From the NCBI GenBank assembly GCA_022360055.1, contig JAKSDO010000262.1, positions 1 through 33,724 on the forward strand: 33,724 bases of DNA. Reading direction: 5' to 3'. This DNA comes from Cytophagales bacterium. Lineage in GTDB: Bacteria; Bacteroidota; Bacteroidia; Cytophagales; Cyclobacteriaceae. Below, one piece after another: positions 14,395 to 31,362 of this stretch (its first letter is position 1; every line of letters begins with the position of its first letter). The notes beneath the pieces are model-generated. The model saw only the letters and a program-made list of their open reading frames with translations. It made no database searches and was not told the origin of the DNA. Both the position numbers and the translations under genes were made by a program.

Positions 14395-14458
14395 AGACAA
14401 TAGTCCGACTATTGGCAACAATTGTCCACGCTTGTTTTTCTCGGACATTCCATTTTTG
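14395..14458 (+). promoter_or_regulatory. 21-bp repeat promoter A, driving the T9SS FG-GAP gene
   Basis: AGACAATAGT (14395-14404) and CAACAATTGT (14416-14425) start 21 bases apart. Exactly 25 bases after the second lies CATTTTTG (14451-14458), a -7-like element ending TTTG. The predicted transcript begins about 35 bases before ATG 14500. That excludes the longer frame starting at 14422 as the true protein start. The architecture is shared with four other promoters in the window. Confidence 0.7.
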
Positions 14459-14499
14459 TACAAACCAATGTGATATCTCAATCGTCAAAGCTTTTAATT

Positions 14500-16464
14500 A
14501 TGGGAAACCGGAGTTTTATTATAAAGTCAGAGATCATTACCCTAAAGGCACTCCTACTTATTGTACTTATTTACATGCCGAATGCCCTTTATTCGCAAAA
14601 AACCAGCATCATATCCTTTTCCCCCGTCAGTGGGCCAGTAGGAACAACTGTCACTATTACCGGAACGAATTTTAATGTTAAACCTTCGGAGAATATTGTT
14701 TTCTTTGGGGCTACACAGGCCATTGTATCTTCTGCTACTCTGACAGCACTCACTGTCAATGTTCCGCCAGGCGCCAGCTATATGCCGATGACGGTATTGG
14801 CCAATGGATTGGCTTATTCTTCTGAACCCTTTACGGTCACTTTCATCGGCGAGCGCATACCGGGTATAAATACGGATTTTGAAGCAGGTCAAAGTCCAGT
14901 ATCAGTTTCCATTGGGGACCTTGACAATGACGGCAGGGCGGACCTGGCGGTGACCAACCAAAATAGTAATGATATTTCCATATTCATGAATACCAGTACC
15001 GGGGTAGGAGCGATCAGTTTTGCGGCCCAAATGAACTATGCTTCAGGAATGAAACCCGTATCAATTTCTATGGGAGATCTGGACAATGACGGCAAGTTAG
15101 ATTTGGCGGTAGCCAATCAAACTGACAATTCCGTTTCTGTATTCCGGAACATCTGTACCAGTACAGGGAGTATTAGTTTTGCGAATAAAGAAGACTATAC
15201 GACCGGGGCGAAACCAAGGTCAGTTACAATGGGCGACCTGGATGGTGATGGTTGGACAGATCTGATACTGGCCGCTCAGGGGGGAAAGAATGTATCGATA
15301 CTTAGGAATATAACCGGTACCGGAACATTTGGTTTTGACAACAAAGAGGACTTTTATGTAGGATCGCAGCTACAATCAGTTGCCGTAGGAGACCTGGATG
15401 GTGATGGGAAGCCGGATTTGGCAGTTGTAGGCAAAAATTCTGATGTGGCAGGAATATTCAGGAACGCCAGTATGGCCACGGGAAACATCAATTTTGACAG
15501 CTTTTATAACTTGATTGCAGGATCCGCACCATCTGCAGTTGCTATAGGCGATTTGGACGACGACGGCAAGTTAGATTTGGCAGTGATAAACGGAGGAGAG
15601 GGTAGTATAAAGTTATATAAAAATTACAGCACAAGCGCCGGAACGATCAGTTTTGATGGCGGAACGGTATATAATACGGACTCAGCTCCCCATTCAGTTT
15701 CCATAAGTGATCTGACCGGCGATGGCAAGCCGGATTTGATGGTAGGGTATAATGACGTATCGATGAACGCTATATCGGTGTTTGAAAATACCAGTACCAG
15801 TTCTAAAGATATAAGTTTTAATACCAGTGCTGCGGTATATGCTACGGGGAATATCCCCGGGTCAGCCGTTGCAGGCGATCTGGATAATGATGGAAGAATA
15901 GATCTGGTCACGGCAAATAGTGGAGATAATACAGTTTCAGTATTGAAGAATTCTAACACTGAAACCGATTTTACAGCGTTTAGTTTTGCAGAGCAGACCG
16001 GTCCGGCCACCATTGATACTATCAATCACACCATAGCCATTGAAGTAAAATACAACACCGATGTAAGCGCCCTGGTTTCGACATTTGCCCTTTCCGAGGA
16101 GGCCATTGCCGCAGTAGGTACAGGAGCACAGAAGAGCGGCACCACTTCGAACGACTTTACAAGCCCGATTACCTATACGGTGACAGCCGGTGACGGCAAC
16201 ACCACACAAGACTGGACTGTAATGGTTACTATAATTGATGATGAAGCAAATCAAGTGGTTGTATATCCCAACCCTGTTTCCCGTATTTTGAATATTCAGT
16301 CCGATACGTTTAAGTCAGCAACTTTATACGGGGTCTATGGACGTGAAGTATTGAAGTCTTTGCAGCAACAAATTGATTTGTCGCAGCTTTCTGCAGGTGT
16401 TTACATATTGGTCGTTGAGGCAAAAACCAATGAAAGAACAAAAATTCGGATTGTAAAGAAATGA
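14500..16464 (+). CDS. T9SS-exported IPT/TIG and FG-GAP repeat surface protein
   Basis: A 654-residue protein starting MGNRSFIIKSE, with a signal peptide ending near LYSQ (about residue 33). Then an IPT/TIG domain (SFSPVSGPVGTTVTITGTNF, to about 115) and seven FG-GAP/VCBS-type repeats (about 130-500). Their calcium-type loops are of the form GDLDNDGRADLAV, GDLDGDGKPDLAV and SDLTGDGKPDLMV. A beta-domain (ITYTVTAGDGNTTQDWTVMV, resembling DUF5018-type modules) comes before a C-terminal type IX sorting domain, VVYPNPVSRILNI through GVYILVVEAKTNERTKIRIV. The protein would cross the outer membrane through the T9SS and be released or surface-attached. Start chosen from the signal peptide and from the promoter whose -7 element ends at 14458. 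Confidence 0.93.
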   Translation: MGNRSFIIKSEIITLKALLLIVLIYMPNALYSQKTSIISFSPVSGPVGTTVTITGTNFNVKPSENIVFFGATQAIVSSATLTALTVNVPPGASYMPMTVLANGLAYSSEPFTVTFIGERIPGINTDFEAGQSPVSVSIGDLDNDGRADLAVTNQNSNDISIFMNTSTGVGAISFAAQMNYASGMKPVSISMGDLDNDGKLDLAVANQTDNSVSVFRNICTSTGSISFANKEDYTTGAKPRSVTMGDLDGDGWTDLILAAQGGKNVSILRNITGTGTFGFDNKEDFYVGSQLQSVAVGDLDGDGKPDLAVVGKNSDVAGIFRNASMATGNINFDSFYNLIAGSAPSAVAIGDLDDDGKLDLAVINGGEGSIKLYKNYSTSAGTISFDGGTVYNTDSAPHSVSISDLTGDGKPDLMVGYNDVSMNAISVFENTSTSSKDISFNTSAAVYATGNIPGSAVAGDLDNDGRIDLVTANSGDNTVSVLKNSNTETDFTAFSFAEQTGPATIDTINHTIAIEVKYNTDVSALVSTFALSEEAIAAVGTGAQKSGTTSNDFTSPITYTVTAGDGNTTQDWTVMVTIIDDEANQVVVYPNPVSRILNIQSDTFKSATLYGVYGREVLKSLQQQIDLSQLSAGVYILVVEAKTNERTKIRIVKK

Positions 16465-16876
16465 ATACAATTACCAATAAAACCTTCATGTGATACCTCT
16501 TTGTATTTATCCCAAAAAAGTAAAGGTATGCTGTCCTCGTATAACCGGAAGCTCATTAATGTCTCAAAAAAGAGAAGTTTTGTTTTACCGGGTTAAAAGA
16601 ATACTGAGTTTACGATCACATTGCCCAAAAGAGAGGCTCATGAAACAATAATCAACTTTTTTGAGACAATGATCCTTTTTGGAATACGGATGGACTCCTA
16701 ATTTTGGCATTATCCTATTTTTTCATCATGGGTGGTCGATAGTTAATTAAATTTGTGGAACTGAAGTATAAAAGCGCTGAAACCCTCAGGTTTTATATTG
16801 TAATACAGTGATTTACTAAAAGCTATGGTAATTAATGGATTTTGAAGTAGAGTAGAATAAATCTTTCATTTCACTT
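16465..16876 (+). other. Long leader and regulatory region of HTCS1
   Basis: No gene. It holds the 21-bp repeat promoter (16643-16706). An inverted partial copy of the same element lies about 109 bases upstream: 16555-16572 is the reverse complement of a GAGACATTAAT-type sequence with the same T-run as 16656-16673. Between the predicted transcription start (about 16713) and the coding start is a leader of about 165 bases. It contains very short ATG frames such as the six-codon frame at 16825. Confidence 0.55.
16643..16706 (+). promoter_or_regulatory. 21-bp repeat promoter B, driving HTCS1
   Basis: AAACAATAAT (16643-16652) and AGACAATGAT (16664-16673) start 21 bases apart. Exactly 25 bases later lies TAATTTTG (16699-16706), a perfect match to the Bacteroidota -7 consensus TAnnTTTG. 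It is nearly identical to the element at 27706-27736. It places an HTCS gene inside the regulon that its own DNA-binding domain may control. Confidence 0.75.
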
Positions 16877-19800
16877 TTGCGAGACAACACTAACATTCGG
16901 GGGATTCTTTTGACGTTTTTAACTGGGTTAACCTTTTCGTTGAGTTCCCAAACGCCTTATCAATATATATCTTATGCTCAAAAAGAAGGCCTTTCCAATG
17001 ATTTTGTGGAAACCGTAGTTCAGGATCATCATGGATTTTTATGGATTGGTACCAGAAATGGACTCAATCGTTTTGACGGGCAACAATTTTTAGAATTTCG
17101 CCATGATCCGGAAGACTCCACTTCTATTAGCAGCAATTGGATAACAAAATTATACGAAGACAGTCGGCAAAATTTATGGATCGGCACCATTAATGGCCTC
17201 AGTAAATTAAACAAGGCGCTTGGTCGTTTTGAAAGAATAGCGTTCAAGCCGTACATAAAAACAGCTATACCGGTTGGTATAAGTAATATTTATGAAGATT
17301 ATAAACAGAATATTTGGGTAAGTACACAAAACTCCGGTCTCTTTAAATTGACTCCCGATAAGGATGAAACCTTGTTCCATCATATATATTACGGTCACAG
17401 CCCTCAATCGACCAACTCATTAAAGAGTAATCAGGCGCGGAGATTTTTGGAAGATCAAAACCACCATTTATGGATGGGTCATTCCGGGGGGGTGGATCGT
17501 CTGAATCCTCACACCGATAAGGTAGACCATTATCTGTTTCCAACTATTCAAAATAGGAAACCCAATATTCGTGATTGCACATACCTAACCACAGATGCTC
17601 ACGGAACAATCATTGCAGCCACTAAATTTAGGGGGATGTATTTTATTCGACCCTCTGATCCGGCGCCGGCGCTCAGACCTTTTAAAGAATATTTTGCCTT
17701 ATCATCTTCAAATCTTCCAGATTTTTCCGGACTGGAAATCGATTGTATACAAATAAGTACACCTGGATATTTACTGATTGGTACTGACCATGGTTTATTT
17801 CAGGTTGATTTGAAAAATGCCAACTACACCCACCTGACTAAAGAGATTTTACCACTGGTTCCCATCAGGTCCTTATTGACAGATAGACAAGGCAATCTTT
17901 GGTTGGGAACCAGCGGTGATGGATTATTGAAACTGACCACTTTGCCAGATCCATTCCGATTCTATCAACACGAGCCGCATGATACCTCCTCCATTTCAGA
18001 AGGACATGTGACTACCGTACTGGAGGATGACTCGGGGAATATCTGGATCGGAACTTCAGGATCAGGATTAGACAAACTTAAATACGATCATCAAGGACAA
18101 CTTATTAAAGAGCAAAACTTTAAACGTAATTTCAGACAAAGCAATTCCTTACTGGATGATAGAATTATCAGGATTTTAAAAGATCATCAGGGGCAACTTT
18201 GGATAGGTACCAAAGGATACGGATTAAATAAGTTAGACCCTATTTCCGGCCGATTTCAGGCTTTCCTTCACGATCCTGATAATCCGTATTCCCTGACTGA
18301 TAATCGCGTCCGAGGATTATGCGAAGATCACCGGGGTTTTATCTGGGTAGGAAGCCTCTCAGAAGGGTTAAACCGCCTGGACCCTCTGAGCGGAGAGGTG
18401 AAGCGGTTTCAACACGACCCTAATAACTCCAATTCAATATTGAGTAATTCAATCAGAACCTTATTTACGGATTCGGAAGGATATATTTGGATCGGTTTTT
18501 CTTGGGGACTGGACAGACTTGATCCGGAAAAGGAAGAGTTTACCCATTTTGTATATAACCCAAATGATCCCGGATCCTTTAATCAGGGGATCGTTTGGTG
18601 CATTTACGAAGACCTGGAAAAGAATCTCTGGGTGGGTACCGGAAATGGTCTTTGCAGGTTTGATCGGAATTCAAACAGGTTTGAACGTTTTTATGAAGAA
18701 GATGGCCTTCCGAGCAACACCATCGTTGGGCTGTTGGAAGACAAAAGCGGAGTTCTATGGATCAGCACGGATAAGGGATTGGCGCGACAAATACCGGCCA
18801 CACTTAAAAATGCCTTCCATTCATTTACTTTTGAAGATGGTCTGGAAACAGTTTCCTTCTTGCCTGAAGCCAATGTGGCTAGTAAGAACAACAGCTATCT
18901 GTATTTTGGAACAACCGATGGCTTGGTAAGGGTAAACCCTGAAGGTATAAGACACGACCGGTATGAAGCGAAATTGGTATTGAACTCTGTTTCAAAACTT
19001 CAGTTCGATGGCAAGGATAATGTGCCTGCTATGGACTACTTTATTAGTGATAAGAAAGAAACCACATTTTCATACAAAGACAAAATCATTAGATTTCGCT
19101 TGTCTGATTTAAATTTATCAAGAAAGTGTAAGCACGAATATGAATATCAATTGGAGGGCTTTGATCAACGGTGGATAAAACTCGGGGAAAACATGGATAT
19201 GAACTTTACAGATCTTGGCCCAGGAAATTATACATTGAAGGCCAGAAGCAGAAACGTGGATACGGATACCAGTAAGGAAGTTCAGTTATTGACAATTTCC
19301 ATATTTCCTCCCTGGTGGAATAATCCCTGGGCTTATTTCTTTTATCTGGTCACCTTGATAGGATTAATTTTATTTTTTTATCGCTTTCAACTCAAACGTC
19401 AATTGGAATACCGGGAAACTAAACGCCTGCAAGCGTTAGATGAGTGCAAAAACCGGATGTATACCAATATCACGCATGAGTTTCGTACACCCCTTACCGT
19501 TATCCAGGGAGTTACCAATCGGATTAGCGGTCACGATAGGGAGAAGCAACTCATTTTGCGCAGTAGTAGTAATATGCTCAGCCTTGTGAATCAAATTCTG
19601 GACTTATGCAAGCTGAAATCCGGTAAAATGAAGCTAAACATGGTGTATGGTAATGTTATTGGATATCTTCACGAGATTTTAGAATCTTTTTACACATTAG
19701 CTGAAAACAAAGGGGTGTCGCTCCATTTTCTCAGTGAGGCCGCGGATCTTATGATGGATTACGATGAGGAAAAGTTTTTTCGCATAGTATCTAATCTGCT

Positions 19801-21019
19801 ATCTAATGCCATTAAATTTACTCCCAGAGGAGGGAATATTTACGTGAATGTCCGCGAGTGCATCACATCCAATTGCATGTTGAAGGCAATGGCTCATGAT
19901 TCAAACCTGTCGGTTGTTATACAGGATACGGGCATTGGCATACCAAAGGAGGAATTACCTCATATATTTAATCACTTTTATCAGGTAGATTCCCTTACTG
20001 ATGCCACACAGAAGGAATTTAGACAAGCCAGTGGGGGTGCGGGGGTAGGGTTGGCCTTATGTGAGGAGTTGGTGAAATTATTGGGAGGAACCTTAACTGT
20101 AGAAAGCAAGCCAAATCAAGGCACGGTTTTCAATCTCAGACTTCCCATCAGCCGGGAGGCCCAACTATCAAGTGAGAATCCAGATCCCGAAAGTGTTGGC
20201 CCTGATCCTGCTTTGATCCAGGACGAGCGTATGGGTGAAAATAGTGACAGGTGGTTTCCGGAAGAAGCCTCCCCAAGCTTACTAATTATCGAAGATAATC
20301 CTGATGTTATGGATTTTGTCTGTGGTCTGGTCGAAAATGATTACAAAGTATCGACTGCACAGAATGGACAGGAAGGTATTGAAAAAGCTATCGAACAAAT
20401 CCCTGATATCATTATTAGTGATGTCGTGATGCCCTGTGTGGACGGATTTGAGGTTTGTGAGATCCTCAAAAACGATGAACGCACCAGTCACATTCCAATT
20501 GTTCTATTAACTGCTAAGGTTGGTATTGAATCCCGCATTTCAGGCTTTAAGCGAGGGGCAGATGCATATCTTACCAAACCCTTTCACGAGGAAGAATTAA
20601 TTGTTCAGCTTGATCAATTGCTTACTTTAAAGAAGCGTTTGCAGCAAAGATATAAATCTTTTGAATCGCCATTGCCTACTTCAGAGCCAGCTCTTCAGCA
20701 AGAAGATGCTTTTATCGTGAAAGTCCGGAAGACAATAGAGGGAAAAATGGGAAATAAAGATTTTAATACCACACAACTGTGTCTGGCGCTTGGTATGAGC
20801 CGTTCCCAGTTGCACCTCAAGATTAAGGCCCTTACCAATCGCTCTACCTCCAATTATATTCAAGCGGTGCGTCTGCAAAAGGCCAGAGAGCTTTTGAGCA
20901 CCACAAATTACAAGATCGTTGAAATTGCGAATAAGGTCGGCTTTCAGAATACTCCTTATTTTTCCCGTCTATTTTCCAAAGAATTCGGGGTGCCTCCTAG
21001 TGATTTCAGGAACAATTAG
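16877..21019 (+). CDS. Hybrid two-component system protein (HTCS1)
   Basis: A 1380-residue one-protein signalling system. A signal peptide (ILLTFLTGLTFSLSSQ) leads to a periplasmic double beta-propeller of Reg_prop repeats; at least eleven have the form DxxGxLWIGTxxGLxRLD. Then a Y_Y_Y domain (about 750-812, YQLEGFDQRW), a membrane helix (about 818-838), a histidine kinase (THEFRTPLTV with His867; N-box SNLLSNAIKF; QDTGIGIP; GVGLAL), a receiver with Asp1182 (IISDVVMP) and KP motif, and a C-terminal AraC domain (about 1275-1380). It senses a periplasmic ligand and regulates transcription directly. No ATG is available before the signal peptide: the frame opens at 16856 and TTG 16877 is the most likely start, without a clear ribosome-binding site. 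Confidence 0.93.
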   Translation: MRDNTNIRGILLTFLTGLTFSLSSQTPYQYISYAQKEGLSNDFVETVVQDHHGFLWIGTRNGLNRFDGQQFLEFRHDPEDSTSISSNWITKLYEDSRQNLWIGTINGLSKLNKALGRFERIAFKPYIKTAIPVGISNIYEDYKQNIWVSTQNSGLFKLTPDKDETLFHHIYYGHSPQSTNSLKSNQARRFLEDQNHHLWMGHSGGVDRLNPHTDKVDHYLFPTIQNRKPNIRDCTYLTTDAHGTIIAATKFRGMYFIRPSDPAPALRPFKEYFALSSSNLPDFSGLEIDCIQISTPGYLLIGTDHGLFQVDLKNANYTHLTKEILPLVPIRSLLTDRQGNLWLGTSGDGLLKLTTLPDPFRFYQHEPHDTSSISEGHVTTVLEDDSGNIWIGTSGSGLDKLKYDHQGQLIKEQNFKRNFRQSNSLLDDRIIRILKDHQGQLWIGTKGYGLNKLDPISGRFQAFLHDPDNPYSLTDNRVRGLCEDHRGFIWVGSLSEGLNRLDPLSGEVKRFQHDPNNSNSILSNSIRTLFTDSEGYIWIGFSWGLDRLDPEKEEFTHFVYNPNDPGSFNQGIVWCIYEDLEKNLWVGTGNGLCRFDRNSNRFERFYEEDGLPSNTIVGLLEDKSGVLWISTDKGLARQIPATLKNAFHSFTFEDGLETVSFLPEANVASKNNSYLYFGTTDGLVRVNPEGIRHDRYEAKLVLNSVSKLQFDGKDNVPAMDYFISDKKETTFSYKDKIIRFRLSDLNLSRKCKHEYEYQLEGFDQRWIKLGENMDMNFTDLGPGNYTLKARSRNVDTDTSKEVQLLTISIFPPWWNNPWAYFFYLVTLIGLILFFYRFQLKRQLEYRETKRLQALDECKNRMYTNITHEFRTPLTVIQGVTNRISGHDREKQLILRSSSNMLSLVNQILDLCKLKSGKMKLNMVYGNVIGYLHEILESFYTLAENKGVSLHFLSEAADLMMDYDEEKFFRIVSNLLSNAIKFTPRGGNIYVNVRECITSNCMLKAMAHDSNLSVVIQDTGIGIPKEELPHIFNHFYQVDSLTDATQKEFRQASGGAGVGLALCEELVKLLGGTLTVESKPNQGTVFNLRLPISREAQLSSENPDPESVGPDPALIQDERMGENSDRWFPEEASPSLLIIEDNPDVMDFVCGLVENDYKVSTAQNGQEGIEKAIEQIPDIIISDVVMPCVDGFEVCEILKNDERTSHIPIVLLTAKVGIESRISGFKRGADAYLTKPFHEEELIVQLDQLLTLKKRLQQRYKSFESPLPTSEPALQQEDAFIVKVRKTIEGKMGNKDFNTTQLCLALGMSRSQLHLKIKALTNRSTSNYIQAVRLQKARELLSTTNYKIVEIANKVGFQNTPYFSRLFSKEFGVPPSDFRNN

Positions 21020-21421: not shown

Positions 21422-24400
21422 ATGTCAGAAACTCAGAAAAAATACGATGTTCAGCACTTTCGGGAATTTATACTGCTTCTGGCCGCTTTTATCCCTTTCT
21501 ACTCTACAAGTGCACAAGACCCTGTAGTAAAATCTTCACAGCAAATTGGACTACCTTATATTCAGAATTTTACGCCAGAAGATTATGGAGCCTGTCCGCA
21601 TAATTATTATATCACCCAAGATCAAGAGCAATTGATCTATGTGGCCAATGAGCAAGGGGTTTTGCAATATGATGGTGCAACCTGGAGACTTATTCCGCTT
21701 TCTAATGGTTCAACTGCGTACTCTGTGGCAACAGGGAGCGATGGTCTTGTTTATGTGGGAGGAGAAGGTGAAATTGGCTGCCTGACCTATAATGAGAAGG
21801 GCGATTTACGCTATTTATCTCTATTGGAAAAAATCCCAGTGCAATATCGGGATTTTTCTTATGTGTGGCAGATGGCTGCTACGAGTCGGCATATTTTCTT
21901 TGCTTCCGATAAGTATTTTTTTTTATGGCAAATTGATGGAACAGATGAACAAATGAAAGTATGGGTAGCAAAGAATATTTTTCATAACTGTTTTGTACTT
22001 AATGATGAGATTTATGTATGGGAATGGGATTCTGGATTGGAGCAGTTGATAGGAGATTCGTTGCAAGTAGTCCCTGACGGGGAGACCTTTAAGTTTAGTA
22101 CTATCCGGCTCATGGCGCCCGTTTTAAATTCAGCCGATGGAAAGATTTTTATAGGTACGGTTCAGCACGGTTTGTTTACTTATGACGGTGTCAAAGCCGA
22201 ATCTTTAGAACTTGCTCCGGTTGTTAAGAAATTTTTAGATGAAAACAGTCTTTACAACAGTGTTCCATTGGACGATGGCACCTATGCCCTGGGCACCACG
22301 AGAGGAGGTATCGCAATTATAGACGGGGATGGTCATATGGTCCAGTTGCTCAATACTTCGACTGGCCTCCAGGATGAGACGGTTGACTTTGTTTTCCCCG
22401 ATTGTCAAGGAGGACTTTGGGTCGCTTCGTTTGATGGAATAAGTAGGATAGAAATTCCGACCCCTTTCACCTTTTTTTCGGATGACCTTGGTTTGACAGT
22501 TGATACGAAAGGTGTTCTTTACCATCAGGACAGGTTTTATGCCTATGGTCCGTCTGGATTTTTTCAACTGACCGAACCGACTCCTAATGACTATCGAACT
22601 CATTTTCAATTAGTCCGTGGAGCAGCATCCCAGAGTCAGGTTTTAAAGATGCTCTTTATAGGCGAAGATTTAATAGTGGCAGCCCATAGCGGTGTATTTA
22701 GACTTAATCTGGATGGAACAGTCAATCATATTATTCATTATCCGGCACATTTACTCCAGCCTTCTCGTTTTTATCGGGACATCGCCTATGTCGGCTTGGG
22801 GAGCGCAGTAGGAATCATACAGGGAACATCCCAGAGGTGGAAATTGAAGGGGCATCTTCAAGGGATAAACGAACCTGTCAGAAGCATTGCTGAAGCATCT
22901 CCCGGTCGGTTATGGGTGACAACTATAGAAAATACCTTTAGTGTTCAGGTTGAGGATGAGAATTTTATGAAAGAAAACACGGATTCAAAACCTGATAGTT
23001 TAAGAGAAATAGCTACTGTTATAAAAAAATTTGATCAGTCCAATGGCCTGCCAAAAGGGACGATCTATGCACATAATGTGAGAGGTAATACTATATTTGC
23101 CACTTCATCAGGTTTTCGCAAATTTGATATCGGGTCGAATACCTTCGTCCCGGACTTCTCCCTTGGCTATACGGATACAACACGTAGTATCCATACGCTT
23201 TCTGTGCAACCCAATGGAGATATCTGGTTTGTCGGTAGTAATTCAACTGATGCAGAGCTCATCCGGTTAAAGCTATTTCCAGATGGCAGCTACCGGCAAA
23301 AGGCTCAACGTTTCCGACACATCCTTTCAAATAGAACAACGATCAATGCTATAGATATTGATCCATCCGATCCCGATATTGCCTGGATTTCCACTTCAGA
23401 CGGTTTGATTAAGTACAATCCCAAAGTGAAGAAAGATTATGAAAAAGCTTTTACGGCATTTGTAAGAAAAGTGTTAGCAAATGGTGATTCTTTAATTTTT
23501 GGTGGTTCCCTTTTAAACAGGCAATCGACCATTTTAAACTATGCCTCTAATGCCGTACGTTTTGAATATGCGGCCCCCAGCTTTGACCGACCTGCTAAAA
23601 CCCGATACCAGGTGTGGCTGGAAGGCTTTGATCCAGGCTGGTCGGAATGGATAGGGGAGGCCAAAAAGGATTATACGAATTTGCCGGAAGGGGATTACAC
23701 ATTTCGGGTCAAAGCCAGGAACGTTTATGGCGAGGTGAGCAAAGAAGGAAGCTTTACTTTCTCCATTCTTCCTCCGTGGTACCGCAGTTGGTGGGCCTAT
23801 TCTACCTATCTGCTTTTGGCAGCAGGAGCTATTTATGGATTGTTGCGTTTGAGATTACACCAGCTCCGGTTGCGTAACCAGGAATTAGAGACCTTGGTCC
23901 AAGAACGCACCCGGGTAGTGGAGGAACAAAAAGAGCGGTTGGTGGAGCTCAACCAGGTAAAATCACGCTTTTTCACCAATATTTCTCACGAATTTCGCAC
24001 ACCATTAACTGTCATCGCAGGTATGATGGAACAAATCAAAGATTTACCGGATCAACGGGTGAAAAAAGTCCGTAAGATTATTCAACGCAACACTTCCAAC
24101 TTACTCAATCTGGTCAACCAAATCCTGGAGCTTCGTAAATTGGAAACCGGTAGCCTGGAGTTAAATTTGATTCAGGGCGATATAGTCTCCTATCTGCGTT
24201 ATATCCTGGAATCCTTTCATTCACTGGCCGAGCGTAAAGGAATAAGTTTGCATTTCCTGTGTGACGAAATGGAAATCATCATGGATTTTGATAAAGAGAA
24301 AATGCTCCGAATCATATCCAATCTTCTTTCAAATGCCCTCCGGTTTGGTGCTGAAGGAGGCCGAGCCTATTTGATGGCATCTAGAATTCCAAAAGGACGC

Positions 24401-25516
24401 TCAACGCCTCCAGGTTTGGAAATTAAAGTCCTGGATACTGGTATCGGAATTAGCGAGGAAAAACTTCCATATATTTTTGACTATTTTTACCAGGCAGATG
24501 ACTCTGGCACACGATGTTCAGAGGGCACGGGAATTGGCCTCTCATTGACCAAAGCGCTGGTTGAGCTGATGAAGGGAACCATTAAAGTGGAAAGCAAACC
24601 TGGAAAAGGAACTACTTTTATAGTGTTTTTACCGATTAGCGAGGTAGCTTGTGTGGAAGCATCAGCTTGGAAAACTGATAAAGTAATATCGGGAATACTT
24701 GATGCTCATATATCGGGTGAAGCCGCTCCCGATCTGTCTGTAGCGGACCTATCCGGTGATATTGATAAACCTGTCGTACTCATTATCGAAGACAATACGG
24801 ATCTGGTAGAATACCTTGGGGCTTTACTAGGTAATCAATATTTATTGGAGGTTGCCTGCGATGGTCGACTTGGGGTTGAAAAGGCGCTAAATAAGATTCC
24901 TGATCTAATTCTCTGCGATGTGATGATGCCGGAAAAAGATGGTTTTGAAGTTTGTGAAATGCTCAAAAAAGATGATCGTACCAGCCATATACCGATCATA
25001 TTGCTTACAGCTAGAGCTGATGTCAAATCGCGAATAACGGGATTAGAACGTGGGGCGGATGCCTATCTTTCCAAACCTTTTAATGAAAAAGAGTTAAAGG
25101 TTACTCTCAAGAAATTGCTTGAACTACGCAGGGTATTGCAGGAGCGTTACCGCGCCTTTGACCGGATAGACCCTTCAGAGGACGAAGCGATTATGCGAGA
25201 GGATGCTTTTATCACTAGATTGAAAAATATAGTAGAAGAGCGCCTCACAGATGAAGCATTCGGGATTGCCGAACTTTGCGCCAAAATTGGCATAAGTCGC
25301 TCCCAATTGCATCTTAAGATTAAGGCTTTAACCAACCGGTCTACCTCTCATTTTATAAGAATGATTCGTCTGCAAAAAGCCAAAGAATTACTCCAACAAT
25401 CTGATTTGAATATTTCAGAAATTGCGTATTGCGTTGGTTTTCAAAACCCTGCATACTTTTCCCGGAGCTTTACTCAGGAGTTTGGTATTTCTCCCAGTGA
25501 GTTTGGCAAACATTGA
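21422..25516 (+). CDS. Hybrid two-component system protein (HTCS2)
   Basis: A 1364-residue HTCS starting MSETQKKYDVQ with a signal peptide ending near YSTSAQ. The periplasmic part (about 35-720) is a divergent propeller with few canonical Reg_prop repeats, followed by a Y_Y_Y domain (YQVWLEGFDPGW, about 728-795) and one membrane helix (about 798-816). A coiled linker rich in Glu and Arg leads to the kinase: SHEFRTPLTV with His856, N-box SNLLSNALRF, LDTGIGIS and GTGIGLSL, all intact. The receiver has Asp1166 (LCDVMMP) and YLSKPF; the AraC domain occupies about 1265-1364. It ends 3 bases before the convergent methyltransferase gene. HTCS3 is its close relative over the cytoplasmic half. Confidence 0.94.
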   Translation: MSETQKKYDVQHFREFILLLAAFIPFYSTSAQDPVVKSSQQIGLPYIQNFTPEDYGACPHNYYITQDQEQLIYVANEQGVLQYDGATWRLIPLSNGSTAYSVATGSDGLVYVGGEGEIGCLTYNEKGDLRYLSLLEKIPVQYRDFSYVWQMAATSRHIFFASDKYFFLWQIDGTDEQMKVWVAKNIFHNCFVLNDEIYVWEWDSGLEQLIGDSLQVVPDGETFKFSTIRLMAPVLNSADGKIFIGTVQHGLFTYDGVKAESLELAPVVKKFLDENSLYNSVPLDDGTYALGTTRGGIAIIDGDGHMVQLLNTSTGLQDETVDFVFPDCQGGLWVASFDGISRIEIPTPFTFFSDDLGLTVDTKGVLYHQDRFYAYGPSGFFQLTEPTPNDYRTHFQLVRGAASQSQVLKMLFIGEDLIVAAHSGVFRLNLDGTVNHIIHYPAHLLQPSRFYRDIAYVGLGSAVGIIQGTSQRWKLKGHLQGINEPVRSIAEASPGRLWVTTIENTFSVQVEDENFMKENTDSKPDSLREIATVIKKFDQSNGLPKGTIYAHNVRGNTIFATSSGFRKFDIGSNTFVPDFSLGYTDTTRSIHTLSVQPNGDIWFVGSNSTDAELIRLKLFPDGSYRQKAQRFRHILSNRTTINAIDIDPSDPDIAWISTSDGLIKYNPKVKKDYEKAFTAFVRKVLANGDSLIFGGSLLNRQSTILNYASNAVRFEYAAPSFDRPAKTRYQVWLEGFDPGWSEWIGEAKKDYTNLPEGDYTFRVKARNVYGEVSKEGSFTFSILPPWYRSWWAYSTYLLLAAGAIYGLLRLRLHQLRLRNQELETLVQERTRVVEEQKERLVELNQVKSRFFTNISHEFRTPLTVIAGMMEQIKDLPDQRVKKVRKIIQRNTSNLLNLVNQILELRKLETGSLELNLIQGDIVSYLRYILESFHSLAERKGISLHFLCDEMEIIMDFDKEKMLRIISNLLSNALRFGAEGGRAYLMASRIPKGRSTPPGLEIKVLDTGIGISEEKLPYIFDYFYQADDSGTRCSEGTGIGLSLTKALVELMKGTIKVESKPGKGTTFIVFLPISEVACVEASAWKTDKVISGILDAHISGEAAPDLSVADLSGDIDKPVVLIIEDNTDLVEYLGALLGNQYLLEVACDGRLGVEKALNKIPDLILCDVMMPEKDGFEVCEMLKKDDRTSHIPIILLTARADVKSRITGLERGADAYLSKPFNEKELKVTLKKLLELRRVLQERYRAFDRIDPSEDEAIMREDAFITRLKNIVEERLTDEAFGIAELCAKIGISRSQLHLKIKALTNRSTSHFIRMIRLQKAKELLQQSDLNISEIAYCVGFQNPAYFSRSFTQEFGISPSEFGKH

Positions 25517-25519: not shown

Positions 25520-26317
25520 TTATCGTCGGACCGCACTTACCTGAAAGATGCGCGGAAAACTGATCACAGAATCGTTACGCTTTCTGAAATTTACCAATTC
25601 TGAATGAATTTTTTTGGCGGCGCTTGTCGATATTATACCTTCCTCAATCAATGCTTTAGAGATTCCGTCAAACATTATTTCTGCCATTAACTTGCCTTTC
25701 CCTTCTGTATGAACAGGCTGTGATATTTGAAGTTCCACATTCACAAATCCAGTTTCTTTCAATAACCAAGCCAGTTTTTGCCCTAGGTTGGCGTCAGCAC
25801 CTCTCTTTTTCAGTAAGCGCTGGTATAAGGATACGTAGCTGTTAAAATGAATTGATAAAGGATTGCTGAAGTGTCCGGAATAATCGGTATCTTCAATTAA
25901 TACCCTTCCTTTTGCTTTCAGAGCAAGCCAAATTTTTTTCAGAATTACTTTAGGGTTGCTTAAATGAGATAACAGAAACCTCGAATAAATCAAATCATAG
26001 GTGGATTTGTCATTTAATTCATACACATCAAATACTTTGAACTTGGCATGATTTATTTTACTAAGTTCGGCAGATCTAAACGCTAATTCAATAGATCGCT
26101 TATCAATATCCAGACCCAGAATTTGTCCACTAATTCCAATATGCTTAGCTATCGTAAGTGTTATATCTCCAATACCACAGCCGAGGTCCAGACAATTCAT
26201 GCCTCCTTTTAGGCCTGCCTTTTCAAGAAAACAGGTTGTACCGGACCTTATGGTGCCCAACAACATTTCAAGCTCATTATTTCCCATTTTTCCCCTATTT
26301 ATTGAGTACTTATCCAT
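25520..26317 (-). CDS. SAM-dependent methyltransferase, class I
   Basis: A 265-residue protein with a class I methyltransferase fold. Motif I is LDLGCGIGD (residues 43-51) with the acidic motif II LGLDID (about 69-74), a later FKVFDVYEL, and the LLSHL and GRVLIEDTDY segments. About 80 residues follow the core and may define the substrate. Small-molecule methylation is more likely than nucleic acid methylation, since no DNA/RNA target motif (DPPY, NPPY) is present. It lies 25 bases downstream of the stand-alone AraC gene on the same strand, so it is probably expressed from the four-repeat promoter. Its end is 3 bases from the end of HTCS2. The substrate cannot be determined here. Confidence 0.85.
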   Translation of the reverse strand: MDKYSINRGKMGNNELEMLLGTIRSGTTCFLEKAGLKGGMNCLDLGCGIGDITLTIAKHIGISGQILGLDIDKRSIELAFRSAELSKINHAKFKVFDVYELNDKSTYDLIYSRFLLSHLSNPKVILKKIWLALKAKGRVLIEDTDYSGHFSNPLSIHFNSYVSLYQRLLKKRGADANLGQKLAWLLKETGFVNVELQISQPVHTEGKGKLMAEIMFDGISKALIEEGIISTSAAKKIHSELVNFRKRNDSVISFPRIFQVSAVRR

Positions 26318-26342: not shown

Positions 26343-26909
26343 TTAAGCCACCTGCTCCTTGCGGAAATCCCGAGGTGACTGTTTAAATTCTTTAGTAAAC
26401 AGACGTGAAAAATATTTGGGATCGTTAAAGCCTACTTCATAGGCCACTTGGCTAATGTTTAGGTCGCTGTCAAGTAGTAAATCGATCGCTTTTCGCAGGC
26501 GAATGGATCGAATATATTTAGATGCCGACAGACCGGTGCGGGCTATGAGATTACGGTGCAATTGCGCACGGCTGATCCCGAAATCCTTACATAATTGGCT
26601 GATGCCATATTGTTCATCATGCAGGTTGATTTCGATCAGTTCGGTAATCCGTTGAATGAACAAGCTGTTCTTCTCAGTACCTTGTTTAGACATCATAGAA
26701 TAAGACTTTGTATTTGTAGTAGGCTCCTGTTCAGTATCTAACTTTTTCATTAACATCACTGGCACATACATCACTGGCACATACATCACTGGCACATTTA
26801 GGGAATGAAGAAATATACTTTTATTCTGGATCATGGGAATGATATTTTCTACCCCATAGAAATTCACATTGAGAGAGCTCATACTGTTGCATAATGCGGT
26901 ATCTCCCAT
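26343..26909 (-). CDS. Stand-alone AraC-family regulator
   Basis: A 188-residue protein. Residues 1-84 have no known fold and contain a VPVMY repeat (39-52). Residues 85-188 form an AraC domain: first helix-turn-helix YGISQLCKDFGISRAQLHR, second NISQVAYEVGFNDPKYFSR, ending SPRDFRKE. The domain closely resembles those of the HTCS proteins (HTCS2: FGIAELCAKIGISRSQLHL and NISEIAYCVGFQNPAYFSR), so it may be an HTCS output domain that lost its sensor. The start at 26909 fits a predicted transcript start near 26939, about 30 bases upstream; a later start at Met72 or Met73 cannot be excluded. It heads an operon with the methyltransferase gene and has four perfect 21-bp repeats in its own promoter. 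Confidence 0.88.
   Translation of the reverse strand: MGDTALCNSMSSLNVNFYGVENIIPMIQNKSIFLHSLNVPVMYVPVMYVPVMLMKKLDTEQEPTTNTKSYSMMSKQGTEKNSLFIQRITELIEINLHDEQYGISQLCKDFGISRAQLHRNLIARTGLSASKYIRSIRLRKAIDLLLDSDLNISQVAYEVGFNDPKYFSRLFTKEFKQSPRDFRKEQVA
26757..26797. repeat. 15-bp in-frame tandem repeat in the AraC gene
   Basis: CACTGGCACATACAT occurs in two full copies plus a partial third, encoding VPVMY-VPVMY-VPVM on the minus strand. The unit is a multiple of three, so copy-number change would lengthen or shorten the protein without a frameshift. It lies in the undefined N-terminal part. Confidence 0.85.
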
Positions 26910-26945: not shown

Positions 26946-27051
26946 CAAAGATCGTGTGTCTTGTAAAAATTCCTTTTCACTATTGTTTTTAATCTTTAGA
27001 CTATTGTTTGATCGACTTGCACTATTGTTTGATAAACTTATACTATTGTTT
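26946..27051 (-). promoter_or_regulatory. Four-copy 21-bp repeat promoter C, driving AraC-methyltransferase operon
   Basis: The decamer ACTATTGTTT (AAACAATAGT on the transcribed strand) occurs four times without a mismatch, at 26979, 27000, 27021 and 27042, exactly 21 bases apart. The copy nearest the gene is 25 bases from GATCTTTG (26946-26953), a -7-like element ending TTTG. Three of the four units also share extra bases after the decamer (GAT and ACTT). The periodicity places all copies on the same face of the helix. Confidence 0.85.
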
Positions 27052-27222: not shown

Positions 27223-27337
27223 AGGACTCCGGTAATGATCATTTTTTAAAAAGGATCGCTATAGCATTTATTACCTGCGGCCATTGTGGAAAGTAAGCAG
27301 TTCAGGCAGCCCGTTAGCGGTTTGGTTTTACTTTATT

Positions 27338-27522
27338 GGCTCACAAATTAAATTCGCAGGAATCTCTCTGGATCCCAGACAGTGATACCTATACATCGGG
27401 AGGTAAACCCAAATGTTAAATCTGTTGCTATTGATCCAAGCACAATTAGTAATGAATACCTGGAAAGTTTGTTGATTGACGTGGTGATCGAAAATCTCTA
27501 TAACACTAACATCAATTGGTAA
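27338..27522 (+). pseudogene. Possible HicA-like toxin relic
   Basis: Two plus-strand frames read GSQIKF and then, after a shift near 27376, QTVIPIHREVNPNVKS and ISNEYLESLL, ending at TAA 27520. The order G-S-x-I-x-F, then V-I-P-I-H with basic and acidic residues, then a C-terminal short helix, resembles the HicA toxin fold with its central histidine strand. No start codon or intact frame remains. Recognition is weak and unverified. Confidence 0.25.
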
Positions 27523-27552
27523 TTTCACGATCCAAAATTTTAAAGGCATACT

Positions 27553-27627
27553 GTGCTCATTTTAGATGCGAATATTCTTTCTTAAGGTCAAACCCGGTGG
27601 GTGTCTGAAGCGTTGCATGCCTCGAAG
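27553..27627 (+). pseudogene. Possible PIN-domain start, relic
   Basis: A plus-strand frame reads VLILDANILS, a stop, then TRWVSEALHASK. This resembles the first strand and helix of PIN toxins, with the first catalytic Asp. Nothing further is recognisable. Very tentative. Confidence 0.2.
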
Positions 27628-27705
27628 GTTTGCCCTTCCGTATTTATCGGATTCTTGGGGAAGCTACAGTTCTAGATGGCTACACACATCAGTTACCTAT
27701 CGATG

Positions 27706-27769
27706 AAACAATAATCCGATTTTGAGAGACAATGGTAAACTTCTGTCATAGCATTTATTTGGTAATTTG
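27706..27769 (+). promoter_or_regulatory. 21-bp repeat promoter D, upstream of a 35-residue peptide
   Basis: AAACAATAAT (27706-27715) and AGACAATGGT (27727-27736) start 21 bases apart. Exactly 25 bases later lies GTAATTTG (27762-27769), ending TTTG. The paired decamers are almost the same as those of promoter B. The predicted transcript start is about 35 bases before the ATG at 27811. Confidence 0.65.
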
Positions 27770-27810
27770 TCATTACGGGATATCCAATTAATAATGAGAA
27801 ATTTAAACGG

Positions 27811-27918
27811 ATGAAATATTTAATGGGAATCAGCATTATCGTAAATCTTGGTTTTCTTTTGGTGGTGATGGGCATGTTTATAGTAAAAGCGATTTTACGA
27901 ATATTAAGATCTAGGTAA
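27811..27918 (+). CDS. Small single-pass membrane peptide, 35 residues
   Basis: An ORF of 35 codons, starting MKYLMGISIIVNLGFLLVVM and finishing GMFIVKAILRILRSR. It has one hydrophobic helix (about residues 5-25) and a strongly basic tail (KAILRILRSR), as in small inner-membrane regulatory peptides. Support for expression: the 21-bp repeat promoter at 27706-27769 has its predicted start about 35 bases upstream. The start context TTTAAACGGATGAAA resembles that of the SprF-like gene at 32698 (TATAAACGGATGAAA). It stands alone, 650 bases before HTCS3. Function unknown; it could signal to or modulate an HTCS. It may also be chance coding in the leader of a longer transcript. Confidence 0.5.
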   Translation: MKYLMGISIIVNLGFLLVVMGMFIVKAILRILRSR

Positions 27919-28566
27919 AAGATCTTTCCATAGTACAGGCATATTTAGTTGATGTTTATAAAATATAAAAAACACGACAGGTTTTATTATAAGATAAACC
28001 AAAAGGGGGCTACTATCAGATAACCAGAGTGGATAAGATTATCGTTCCTTCTCCGAAGTGCCATGCCAATTAGGGGCTGTGAGGCGTAAGATGCGGACGG
28101 ATGTTTCGTATAGCACGTTTGGTTTACTGCTATTAAGGCAGGAGGACAAAGGGGCTCACTTCAGCAAAGCTTTCCATGATAGGCTGGGGAATATAATCAT
28201 ACACCTGCCTGACCCTGGATTTGCGATGGAGTGAGCCAATAACTTCACTCCCCAGCGGATTTGAATAATTGTATGAGCCCGGAAAATGCCAACATGAATA
28301 ATGGTATCCGGATTCGGAGTTATCTCGATGCGCCTACTCCGCACCAGCAGCGGAGAATCAAGTATTAGCCAAAAAATGTCGGCCCTCCATGCCAAAGATT
28401 TTGGAGGGCCGTGATAACAACATCGCCTTTAAAGCTACCTGAAAAACAATTTAGTTCCGTTAAGTACTATCTCAAGTGTAAGTGATATTAGGTGGAGAAC
28501 TATAAATTAAAATTGATCTAATATACCGGGTAAGATTTTTAAATACCTCCTACATCAAAATCAAAC
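27919..28566 (+). other. Gap before HTCS3, with a stem-loop
   Basis: About 650 bases without a supported gene. A 79-codon minus frame (28156-28395) has no known domain and begins inside a hairpin. One isolated decamer, AAACAATTTA (28444-28453), has no 21-base partner and no TTTG at the right spacing. The final bases before 28567 resemble the HTCS2 leader. Confidence 0.5.
28380..28411 (-). terminator. Strong stem-loop, terminator-like on minus strand
   Basis: CGGCCCTCCA (28380-28389) pairs perfectly with TGGAGGGCCG (28402-28411), giving a 10-bp GC-rich stem with a 12-base loop. On the minus strand the stem is followed, after four bases (GACA), by a run of six T, as in intrinsic terminators. 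No gene is known on that strand to be terminated here, so the role is unclear. Confidence 0.4.
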
Positions 28567-31143
28567 ATGTCTAAAACCAAGCAAAATTATAATTTTATTG
28601 GATTTATTCTATTCATCACAGCGGTTCTACTCGGTAACGTTTTAAGTGTTCAAAGCCAAATTATTGATAGCCTGCGACAGAAATTGGATACATCAAAAGC
28701 AGATAACGCTATCGTTGACTATGCCGCGGATCTAGTCGTCAAGTTAATAGGAATTGATAAGGATGGCACTGAGGTGTTAGTTAGAGCCGCCAATTTGCTG
28801 ATTCCCAATCCAGCGAACTTCGGGGAAAAGGCAATGACCCTTCAGAAAATCAGCATTGGCTATCATGAAACCGAACAGTCAGATATAATTTTGACATTCT
28901 TGGAGGAGGCAAAACAACTGGCAGAGGAGATTGGCTTTAAAAAAGGCCTGACTTTTCCCTTAATTGGTCCGGGTATTATTTATGAAAAGATGGGTCAGTT
29001 GAATCCAACCGACATGTATTTGCAAAAGACTTTGGACATTTCCAATAAATATGCGGACAACTATGTTAAGGTTTATTGTTTGCTGCACCTGCGTAGATCA
29101 TTAAGGAACCGCGAGGAGATTCCCGGGGCAATTAGTCTTCCGAAAGAAGGTTACCTCCAGTCTGAAAGTATGTTGTTGGCTGAAAAGAAAGATATTGCCA
29201 AACAATTATATCAGATCTATAAAGCGCAAGATAAGCTGTCTGGGGCATTGTCGAATCATGAGCGTTTCAAAACTTTACACGACGCTCGGTTTAATGAGGA
29301 AGAAAAAGGAAAACCTACCGGGCTTGAATTGGGATATAAATTTGAAGAGGAAGAATACGAATTGAAAGATCAGGATCAAAGCGAAGCTTTGATGTTCAAT
29401 ATCCGGTTACAACGCCAACACTTTATCCAGGTCGTTATTATAATAGTCTTAGCAATTGCGCTGTTTTTCACCTTAACCATAGCCGGCTATTATTGTTTGA
29501 AGTGTAGAATTAACCTGAAGTTGAGCAAATTAAACATGAAAATCGCAGCTCAAAAGAAGCGATTGCGACGGCTTGACCATCTAAGATTCCAATTCCTTAC
29601 CAACATCTCCTATGAGTTTAGGACACCACTCACCGTTATTAGTCTTATGGTGGAACAAATCAAAGATTTGCCCGATCAACGTGTAAAAAAAGTCCGTAAG
29701 ATCGTCCGGTCTAACGCGTCCAACCTACTCAACCTGGTTAACCAGGTCCTGGAGCTTTGTAAGTTGGAAACCGATAGTCGGGAGTTGAATTTGATGCGGG
29801 GAGATATTGTCTCTTATCTGCGTTATATTATGGAGTCCTTCCGTTTTATGGCTGAGCGTAAAGGAATAAGATTACATTTCCTTTGTGATGAAATGGAAAT
29901 CATAACGGATTTTGATAAAGAAAAAATACTCGGGATCGTATCCAACCTTCTTTCGAATGCGATTGGATTTGGCACGGAGGGTGGACAAGCTTATCTGATG
30001 GTTTCCATGGTCCCTGAAGGACCTTTAACACCTCAGGGTTTAGAGATCAAAGTTTGGAATACGGGTATTGAAATTAGCGAGGAAAAACGTCCATATTTTT
30101 TTGATTGTTCTTGCCGGGCAAATGATTCAGCCCCTGGGCGATCGGTAGGCACTGGAATTTACTTGTCATTGACCAAAGCATTAGTTGAGCTGATGAAAGG
30201 GACCATTCAAGTAGAAAGCGCACCTGGAAAAGAAACTGTTTTTATAGTGTTTTTACCAATTAGCGGGGCAGCCCATAAAGAAGCATCAATGAGGAAAACC
30301 AATAAAGCACTATCGGGAATCCTTAATACCTATATACCTGATGAAACCACTCGAACCGATCTGCTTTTGGAAGCCCTATCGGGAGATGATGGCAAACCGG
30401 TTTTGCTCATTATCGAAGACAACATCAATGTCGTAGAATACCTTGAATCTTTACTTGATGATCAATATCAATTGGAGGTAGCCTTTGACGGCCAGGAGGG
30501 AATCGAAACAGCGTTTAATAAAATCCCCGATTTAATTCTTAGTGATGTGATGATGCCCGGAAAGGATGGCTTTGAAGTTTGTAAAACTCTCAAAGGGGAT
30601 GATCGTACGAGCCACATTCCGATCGTGCTGCTCACTGCCAAAGCGGATGTAGAATCTCGGGTAGCTGGATTGGAACACGGAGCGGATACCTATCTAACCA
30701 AACCCTTTAACGAAAAAGAGCTAAGTGTTACGCTTGAGAAACTGCTTGATTTGCGCAGAGTATTGCAGAAGCGCTATCGCTTTTTGGATCAGATGGTTCC
30801 CTCTGAAGATGTAGCTACTCAGCAAGAAGATGCTTTCATCACTAAATTGAGGAATATAGTAGAGAAGAACCTGACAGATGAAGAATTTGGAATTTCTGAA
30901 CTCTGCACCGTCATTGGAATGAGCCGTACGCAGTTACACCTTAAGATTAAGGCTTTAACTGATCAGCCCACCTCTCACTTTATACGAATGACTCGCTTGC
31001 AAAAAGCTAAAGAACTGCTGAAACAATCTGATTTGAATATTACAGAAATTGCGTATGAGGTCGGTTTTCAAAGTATTTCTTATTTTTCGCGATCCTTTAT
31101 TGAAGAATTTGGCATTACTCCCAGTGAGTTTAGAAATCGTTGA
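28567..31143 (+). CDS. HTCS3: TPR-like sensor with degenerate kinase, intact receiver and AraC output
   Basis: An 858-residue HTCS relative. It starts MSKTKQNYNF with a signal peptide ending near VQSQ. The periplasmic part (about 31-285) is helical and TPR-like, not a propeller. One membrane helix spans about 288-309. The kinase is very similar to HTCS2 but altered at three motifs. The phospho-accepting His is Tyr349 (SYEFRTPLTV, codon TAT). The G1 box DTGIG is NTGIE (Asn498, Glu502). The G2 box GTGIGL is GTGIYL (Tyr532). The receiver keeps Asp660 (LSDVMMP), Thr690 and Lys712; the AraC domain (about 760-858) is intact. It is probably a duplicate of HTCS2 with a replaced sensor; autophosphorylation is unlikely. 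It may be phosphorylated by another kinase or act independently of phosphate. Confidence 0.93.
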   Translation: MSKTKQNYNFIGFILFITAVLLGNVLSVQSQIIDSLRQKLDTSKADNAIVDYAADLVVKLIGIDKDGTEVLVRAANLLIPNPANFGEKAMTLQKISIGYHETEQSDIILTFLEEAKQLAEEIGFKKGLTFPLIGPGIIYEKMGQLNPTDMYLQKTLDISNKYADNYVKVYCLLHLRRSLRNREEIPGAISLPKEGYLQSESMLLAEKKDIAKQLYQIYKAQDKLSGALSNHERFKTLHDARFNEEEKGKPTGLELGYKFEEEEYELKDQDQSEALMFNIRLQRQHFIQVVIIIVLAIALFFTLTIAGYYCLKCRINLKLSKLNMKIAAQKKRLRRLDHLRFQFLTNISYEFRTPLTVISLMVEQIKDLPDQRVKKVRKIVRSNASNLLNLVNQVLELCKLETDSRELNLMRGDIVSYLRYIMESFRFMAERKGIRLHFLCDEMEIITDFDKEKILGIVSNLLSNAIGFGTEGGQAYLMVSMVPEGPLTPQGLEIKVWNTGIEISEEKRPYFFDCSCRANDSAPGRSVGTGIYLSLTKALVELMKGTIQVESAPGKETVFIVFLPISGAAHKEASMRKTNKALSGILNTYIPDETTRTDLLLEALSGDDGKPVLLIIEDNINVVEYLESLLDDQYQLEVAFDGQEGIETAFNKIPDLILSDVMMPGKDGFEVCKTLKGDDRTSHIPIVLLTAKADVESRVAGLEHGADTYLTKPFNEKELSVTLEKLLDLRRVLQKRYRFLDQMVPSEDVATQQEDAFITKLRNIVEKNLTDEEFGISELCTVIGMSRTQLHLKIKALTDQPTSHFIRMTRLQKAKELLKQSDLNITEIAYEVGFQSISYFSRSFIEEFGITPSEFRNR

Positions 31144-31298
31144 TCCTGAGCATCCGACATAGATATTTCTACAAAGCCGGAATGTTCGACTACAGTATTT
31201 AGCAGAATGGTCAGACATCCCAATCTCTACTTCCATGATTTATCCTGGGAAAAATCAATTGGTAAATTTCATCTCAATATTCAGTTTATCTCCTCCTG

Positions 31299-31362
31299 AG
31301 ACAAACCTCCACTTATTTGAAACAATAGTGGATTTCTTGTAATCACTTACTATTCAATTTTG
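31299..31362 (+). promoter_or_regulatory. 21-bp repeat promoter E, driving the CHU_C/SprF pair
   Basis: AGACAAACCT (31299-31308, the less conserved copy) and AAACAATAGT (31320-31329, identical to the four copies at 26979-27051) start 21 bases apart. Exactly 25 bases later lies CAATTTTG (31355-31362), ending TTTG. The predicted transcript start is about 19 bases before ATG 31388. Confidence 0.7.

Follow-up and report, generated by a model that had tools for sequence, protein, structure and literature searches.

The composite elements and neighbouring genes

We analysed a window of 33,724 bp (positions 1-33724 of contig C54) in the genome of a Cytophagales bacterium of the family Cyclobacteriaceae (G000; 7.55 Mb in 300 contigs). 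The window holds five copies, A to E, of a composite DNA element made of two RRACAATNNT half-sites 21 bp apart, then 25 bp, then an octamer, NNNNTTTG, that resembles the -7 box of Bacteroidota promoters. The genes adjacent to these copies encode proteins of the type IX secretion system (T9SS), regulators, a methyltransferase and a small open reading frame (ORF), with no glycan-utilisation genes (SusC/SusD, glycosidases) among them.

Element A (14395..14458, plus strand; half-sites 14395-14404 and 14416-14425, -7-like octamer CATTTTTG at 14451-14458) has one mismatch to the composite and ends 42 nt before the ATG at 14500, one possible start of a gene (14500..16464, plus) for an FG-GAP repeat protein with a TIG domain and a type A T9SS sorting tail (Pfam FG-GAP_3, TIG, Por_Secre_tail; TIGR04183). 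A palindrome, CAATAGTCCGACTATTG at 14398-14414, overlaps its first half-site. Element B (16643..16706, plus; half-sites 16643-16652 and 16664-16673, -7 box TAATTTTG at 16699-16706) is an exact match and lies 171 nt before the first possible start, a TTG, of HTCS1 (16877..21019, plus). According to the domain scan, this hybrid two-component system (HTCS) protein combines a propeller sensor, a histidine kinase, a receiver and an AraC-type helix-turn-helix (HTH) domain; it is followed by HTCS2 (21422..25516, plus; histidine kinase, receiver and AraC-type HTH by the same scan).

Element C, on the minus strand (26946..27051), consists of four arrayed half-sites, whose starts are at 27051, 27030, 27009 and 26988, and the -7-like octamer GATCTTTG at 26953-26946. 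It precedes the gene for AraC188 (26343..26909, minus), which the domain scan describes as an AraC-type protein without kinase or receiver, its HTH spanning residues 106-184; a short tandem repeat at 26754-26798 encodes a repeated VPVMY near the N-terminus. The second gene, after AraC188, encodes an S-adenosylmethionine (SAM)-dependent methyltransferase (25520..26317, minus; identified by domain scan, with no listed NCBIfam model at cut-off). Element D (27706..27769, plus; half-sites 27706-27715 and 27727-27736, -7-like octamer GTAATTTG at 27762-27769), again an exact match, ends 42 nt before a putative 35-codon ORF with a hydrophobic stretch (27811..27918, plus). The earlier note on this DNA had D drive a 35-residue peptide; the frame is a putative ORF, and HTCS3 (28567..31143, plus; histidine kinase, receiver and AraC-type HTH by domain scan), about 800 nt downstream, is a possible alternative target, with no plus-strand terminator-like site between D and HTCS3. 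Sensor, kinase, receiver and AraC-type HTH are found on a single chain in HTCS1 and HTCS2, while the sensor of HTCS3 is TPR-like by homology only, the protein being 47% identical over ~750 aa to the TPR-sensor HTCSs of two relatives, G015 and G095.

Element E (31299..31362, plus; a degenerate half-site at 31299-31308 and a second at 31320-31329, -7-like octamer CAATTTTG at 31355-31362) has one mismatch. Its -7 box lies 26 nt before the ATG of a T9SS type B (CHU_C) protein gene (31388..32602, plus), which is followed by a gene that domain and family scans assign to the PorP/SprF family of T9SS outer-membrane partners (32599..33663, plus). A 16-bp hairpin with a T run at 31431-31466 (fold z-score -3.4), ~40 nt inside the CHU_C frame and 69 nt past the -7 box of E, looks terminator-like and is a possible attenuator.

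The five elements lie where the earlier note had placed them, and the distance from the last decamer to the TTTG-ending octamer is exactly 25 bp in all five. Other parts of that description needed adjustment. The decamer holds for every copy in B, C and D, whereas the second copy in A (CAACAATTGT) and the first in E (AGACAAACCT) are each one base off; the four positions given for C belong to the same decamers and are their low ends, not their minus-strand starts. The decamer is present as a repeat unit and is too short, as conservation continues to TSCA. Of the Bacteroidota TAnnTTTG -7 consensus, TTTG occurs in five of five octamers, A at position 2 in four of five and T at position 1 in B only, and the octamers of D and C match it weakly.

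The arrangement exceeds chance

Exact half-site pairs in the window are found five times at a distance of 21 and twice at 42, the latter within the array; the remaining distances from 10 to 59 give none. When one mismatch per half is allowed there are ten pairs, five of which have TTTG at the same offset (the other five are two inner members of array C and pairs at 27192 on the plus strand and at 16585 and 14427 on the minus strand). The binomial probability of TTTG at a shared offset is ~1e-8; corrected for 45 offsets it is ~5e-7. In addition, 300 dinucleotide shuffles of the window yielded a single composite with at most one mismatch in total, against the five observed.

In the genome scan that had been proposed as a check, the composite at up to one mismatch has five matches, all of them in this window, as against one for the reversed pattern. 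At up to two mismatches the sole extra match is an overlapping register of array C. Because all strong sites (at most one mismatch) fall in one contig, the regulon appears, when judged by such sites, to be restricted to this locus. Without the box, the pair pattern proved too loose as a screen of the family and was set aside, as it matched 75 of 390 genomes with ~48 control matches; under this loose screen the congener G004 has one matching pair.

A longer half-site and sites found independently of the box

Over 26 tabulated sites the full half-site reads RRACAATAGTSCA, longer than the decamer; a T is conserved three bases upstream of the second copy, and 92% have A at octamer position 2 (where the G303 row is shifted by one). 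Since 20 of the 26 were taken from the window or found by a search with TTTG built in, their spacing is not independent evidence. Six sites were found independently of the box (one in L040, four in G666 and one in G303), and in five of these it lies at 25 bp and in one at 26 bp.

In L040, a named metagenome-assembled genome (Bacteroidia bacterium Co_bin.344), the pair found without the box sits between an HTCS gene and a divergent gene for a 1352-aa protein that ends in a T9SS tail; TAAATTTG follows the pair at exactly 25 bp. G666, from another family of the same order, is the only one of the 390 genomes with the strict pair, at four sites, and all four have TANTCTTG exactly 25 bp on (individual octamers TACTCTTG or TAGTCTTG). 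The reversed control of the strict pair also gave four matches, all in G704, so the G666 count alone is not significant; it is gene context and box that lend G666 its weight. Site 1 directly follows an HTCS gene and precedes the gene for a 2576-aa FG-GAP protein. Site 2 lies between that FG-GAP gene and ORFs of 328 and 1739 aa, site 3 between an HTCS-like kinase ORF and ORFs of 627 (FG-GAP) and 1354 aa, and site 4 between an HTH remnant and an O-methyltransferase gene. These stretches of G666 (L263-L265) consist of repeated modules, each an HTCS or its remnant, an identical operator and very large FG-GAP/Ig-domain proteins, and one module copy ends in a decayed HTH. A relaxed composite that includes the box gave 13 matches in 7 of 390 genomes of the order (G205, G462 and G473 among them) as against one control match.

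Occurrence in relatives and link to the DNA-binding domain

Among 196 genomes of the family, 23 contain the composite at up to one mismatch: G179 has ten matches, G115 has three, G015 and G095 have one exact match each, and 15 of the 23 hold one single 1-mismatch match, while the reversed pattern gives nine matches in total. In both G015 and G095 the site lies between the HTCS gene related to HTCS3 and a SAM methyltransferase gene. The sites in G179 precede two AraC188-like genes, a thioredoxin-DUF4369 gene, a methyltransferase-permease pair, a LuxR-type regulator gene and others; one of the AraC genes (L155:9665) has four half-sites upstream, spaced by 20, 21 and 21, and the second AraC188-like gene has a two-copy site. 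A four-copy array also stands in G303 (L229, C96, ~8400-8880) before a decayed frame that by eye resembles part of AraC188, with a carbonic anhydrase gene beyond it. In G115 the sites are on small contigs near T9SS genes. A related site in G169 precedes a PKD-domain gene and a SusC/SusD pair; G169 (to which G147 is identical) and G113, in which a distant HTCS lies beside a polysaccharide utilisation locus, were labelled separately. The composite matches further include a site inside an ORF in G093 and a site without a close binding domain in G089.

Several other features of these neighbourhoods were recorded. A SAM methyltransferase gene is the first gene after the site in G015, G095, G179 and G666, and the second, after AraC188, in the window; the 245-aa methyltransferase family occurs in 4 of the 196 family genomes, with the element directly upstream of three of five copies and not upstream of the second copy in G179 or the one in G028. 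The G179 stretches with sites (L155, L156 and L158) hold molybdenum-cofactor genes (MoaA-like, MoeA, MoCF) and purine-type transporter genes, hinting at a different regulon content there. In G015 (L162:13011-15380) genes for a protein kinase and a LanC-like protein, of the class III/IV lanthipeptide synthetase type, adjoin the HTCS gene.

The element is accompanied by a particular kind of AraC-type domain. The best five matches to AraC188 in the 196 family genomes (its own, two in G179, one each in G095 and G015) each have a composite with at most one mismatch next to them, and lower matches are also found by sites (G179 C56, G179 C194, and HTCS2 and HTCS3 of the window itself). Among 30 loci from an AraC188 search, at most one per genome, a composite with up to two mismatches is present within 1.5 kb (less at contig ends) in four and absent in 26. 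Placing the 11 site-linked rows on a tree of 48 DNA-binding domains takes two changes, compared with a mean of 10.1 when labels are shuffled. One clade (seven rows, support 95/86) unites HTCS1, HTCS2 and HTCS3 with the HTCSs of G179, G015 and G095; another (98/92) unites AraC188 with its nearest relatives, the two G179 AraC proteins, and is joined by L040 (89/74). Rows of site-bearing genomes away from the sites were scored as unlinked, seven identical rows were merged and five were removed, four as second readings of included domains and one for poor likeness (L163_3281, the 349-aa AraC protein in G095). Rows entered the tree because they resembled AraC188, and their labels reflect proximity, the window HTCSs counting as site-linked by location, and the tree thus supports recognition without proving it. 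As judged from sequence, the motif appears to follow the lineage of the DNA-binding domain, element and related domains travelling together across genera, and we infer that both domain lineages, HTCS and AraC188, would read the same operator.

The spacing recurs in distant Bacteroidota

A sister HTCS clade has no composite of the window kind. A related repeat with the core GRAACAA stands, 21 bp apart, 3' of the HTCS stop in six of the seven loci examined (the seventh, L220, ends at the contig end), and all six (L205, L206, L208, L214, L215 and L219) have TAnnTT at exactly 25 bp; L214 carries a longer array. Four of the six repeats are near-identical. In Bacteroidales loci, TTGTCCACC-N12-TTGTCCACC repeats lie between an HTCS gene and an ORF of 1061-1095 aa, of SusC size, and the first TTGTCCACC repeat is followed at exactly 50 nt by the start of TAnnTTTG in eight of eight loci that had been chosen for the repeat and not for the box (L104, L060, L100, L077, L082, L103, L093 and L074, near the HTCS stop at ~10319-10700). 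The distance to the octamer is the same for the GTCCA core of the Bacteroidales repeats and the GTSCA of the window; the sister clade is without that core.

A motif-free test covered 1269 TAnnTTTG sites in 80 named HTCS loci, and HTCS loci only. It returned 231 repeat positions at a lag of 21, against 14 to 86 at the other 16 lags, peaking 30 bp before the octamer. A lag-21 repeat at 26-34 bp was found for 23 octamers in 22 loci, compared with 29 octamers spread over 40-84 bp; one of the 23 is that of L040, and L064 also has its repeat at the usual distance. By our own reading, TTGTCC-type repeats account for 16 of the 23, so that those cases are not independent. A search of the same 80 loci for RRACAA pairs at 21 bp with TAnnTTTG at the window offset failed (0 of 25 pairs). 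The pairs themselves number 25 at 21 bp against 7 to 11 at 19, 20, 22 or 23, and about 15 of the 25 are minus-strand readings of TTGTCC repeats, where the promoter points the other way.

A proposed activation operator and its alternatives

We consider it likely, from the sequence evidence above, that the element is the activation operator of HTCS2, HTCS3, probably HTCS1, and AraC188, and that it delimits a locus-restricted, self-regulated regulon for T9SS surface proteins. From sequence, spacing, statistics and domain co-occurrence as observed we infer how binding, activation, the direction of control, the amplifier and the signal could fit together. Two AraC-type domains would occupy neighbouring RRACAATAGTSCA half-sites, 21 bp apart and on the same face of the DNA, the near half-site adjoining the place of the -33 box, and polymerase would be recruited to the -7 box at a fixed distance. 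The binders would be the related output domains of HTCS2, HTCS3 and probably HTCS1, together with the sensorless AraC188. An outside signal sensed by an HTCS would then turn on the FG-GAP protein, the CHU_C/SprF pair, HTCS1 (through B) and AraC188 (through C); AraC188, which would need no signal, could amplify or hold this state.

In Flavobacterium psychrophilum TAnnTTTG is placed at -12 to -5 (PMC9723704). If the same register applied, the near decamer would lie at about -47 to -38 and the far decamer two turns upstream; beside the place of the -33 box, the near decamer would take the position of a polymerase-touching activator. A transcript map of Bacteroides thetaiotaomicron has reportedly been published (PMC7366714). 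HTCS and SusR-like regulators of that organism are typically constitutive and expressed at a low level, according to a passage of PMC6874557. As the promoters of HTCS1 and AraC188 themselves carry the operator, feedback is likely.

Several observations weigh against this reading, besides the reversed control for G666 and the choice and labelling of the tree rows mentioned above. Within the window, HTCS2 has no element directly upstream by pair enumeration, and the target of element D appears ambiguous between the 35-codon ORF and HTCS3. At up to three mismatches the genome has 47 matches against 17 for the reversed pattern, so weak sites elsewhere are indistinguishable from background. The composite at up to one mismatch occurs in none of six congeners, two of them incomplete (85% and 74%), and in a phylum sample of 183 genomes the relaxed composite with the box is present in the bacterium's own genome only. 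The geometry is not invariant, since the box in G303 is the one at 26 bp rather than 25 and two boxes in G179 end in TTTA; L225, one of the 26 loci without a composite, has a core pair with one mismatch and no box. Targets vary as well: site-linked genes elsewhere are often not surface protein genes (transporters, a LuxR-type regulator, methyltransferases), one G115 site points off its contig and another faces a convergent gene, leaving their targets ambiguous, and the CHU_C protein of the window has no full-length relative among the matches listed in 38 other genomes.

Three other explanations deserve consideration. AraC188, or one HTCS, might be the sole regulator, the others binding elsewhere and merely lying nearby; the array in AraC188's own promoter, the two G179 AraC genes with sites and HTCS2 without its own element would all suit such an arrangement. 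We nevertheless think it unlikely, as in G015 and G095 the site adjoins an HTCS gene and the fetched stretches contain no AraC188-like short gene (the nearest AraC gene in G095 encodes 349 aa and lies ~5.5 kb from the site), and the site-linked HTCS domains form their own supported clade. LytTR regulators, too, recognise direct repeats spaced by two turns, and geometry alone separates neither an activator from a repressor nor AraC from LytTR. A role of the elements as repressor sites, or as an operator of LytTR type, is nonetheless quite improbable: the scanned genes near sites include AraC-HTH proteins with no LytTR domain listed, and the near half-site and the -7 box do not overlap, the half-site being the upstream one, as in activated promoters.

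The repeats could also be copies of a recently duplicated or mobile segment, their spacing inherited and not selected. The four G666 loci share alignable flanks (77-93% over 180-430 bp) and may be mutual duplicates, and the near-identity of four of the six sister-clade repeats points the same way. By eye, however, A to E show no likeness to one another in their spacers and flanks, no duplicated promoter segment emerged when 26900-31400, the region of C, D and E, was searched for repeats, and the same spacing is seen in the unrelated backgrounds of L040, the sister clade and the Bacteroidales, all of which makes such an origin very improbable indeed. The activation operator read by the HTCS and AraC188 domains thus remains the explanation we prefer.

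Some further features of the window were recorded. The stretch 2503-12450 holds an ABC/MacB-like pair and an RND efflux operon, the latter including an AraC-type gene of its own at 11338-12450; no half-site pair in this stretch has both halves within one mismatch. The window has no Rfam match at gathering scores, and sigma-70-type promoters in 25400-33724 number 17, against 22.7 in shuffles.

Relation to known systems and implications

Classical AraC-type activation uses tandem direct repeats two turns apart that abut the core promoter. The window differs from it in having a Bacteroidota promoter and, as regulator, a membrane-bound hybrid kinase or a sensorless HTH protein. Closer to the present case, the HTCS operators of B. 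thetaiotaomicron are described, in the passages of Ravcheev et al. 2013 (PMC3878776) considered here, as direct repeats averaging 21 bp that are bound by dimers on one face, with a motif shared by paralogous HTCSs. The likeness lies in the direct repeats, the AraC-type HTH and targets near the regulator; yet those regulons serve glycan use, whereas that of the window would serve T9SS surface proteins, and, relative to the same passages, a sensorless AraC, regulator promoters as targets and a fixed register to the -7 box are peculiar to the window. A part of PMC11253607 names predicted HTCS sites in two promoters. The Bacteroidales/Prevotella TTGTCCACC loci share with the window the 21-bp repeat and a GTCCA core at the distance of GTSCA from TAnnTTTG; they differ from it in lacking the RRACAATA part and in that the next gene is an ORF of SusC size, judged by length alone.

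We found no report of a fixed operator to -7 distance in the open-licence PMC literature, and no literature joining AraC, direct repeats, TAnnTTTG and promoter; the string ACAATAGTCCA appeared only under unrelated titles. The earlier note had spoken of an undescribed HTCS/AraC regulon. An HTCS/AraC-type operator two turns long near a -7-like box stands, but 21-bp direct repeats are already a published HTCS signature in the passages of PMC3878776 cited above. The operator class is hence known, and what is apparently new is the motif specificity, the T9SS targets, the combination of HTCSs with a sensorless AraC that has a four-copy array, and the -7 register.

A more general proposition goes beyond the locus, and we put it forward tentatively, as somewhat less probable than not in its entirety. 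HTCS/AraC promoters may follow one rigid grammar, with half-sites 21 bp apart and the near core ~26 bp before the octamer whatever the sequence specificity; the window would then add a two-step switch, in which the HTCSs feed the sensorless AraC188 and this protein, driving itself through the four-copy array, locks the surface-protein state. If true, regulons would be readable from sequence alone, and the fixed register would let the operators, promoters and targets of many uncharacterised HTCSs be predicted. The HTCS literature that we found concerns glycan use. The present locus connects this regulator class with surface proteins of the type IX secretion system, and also with a sensorless AraC protein that may act as an amplifier.

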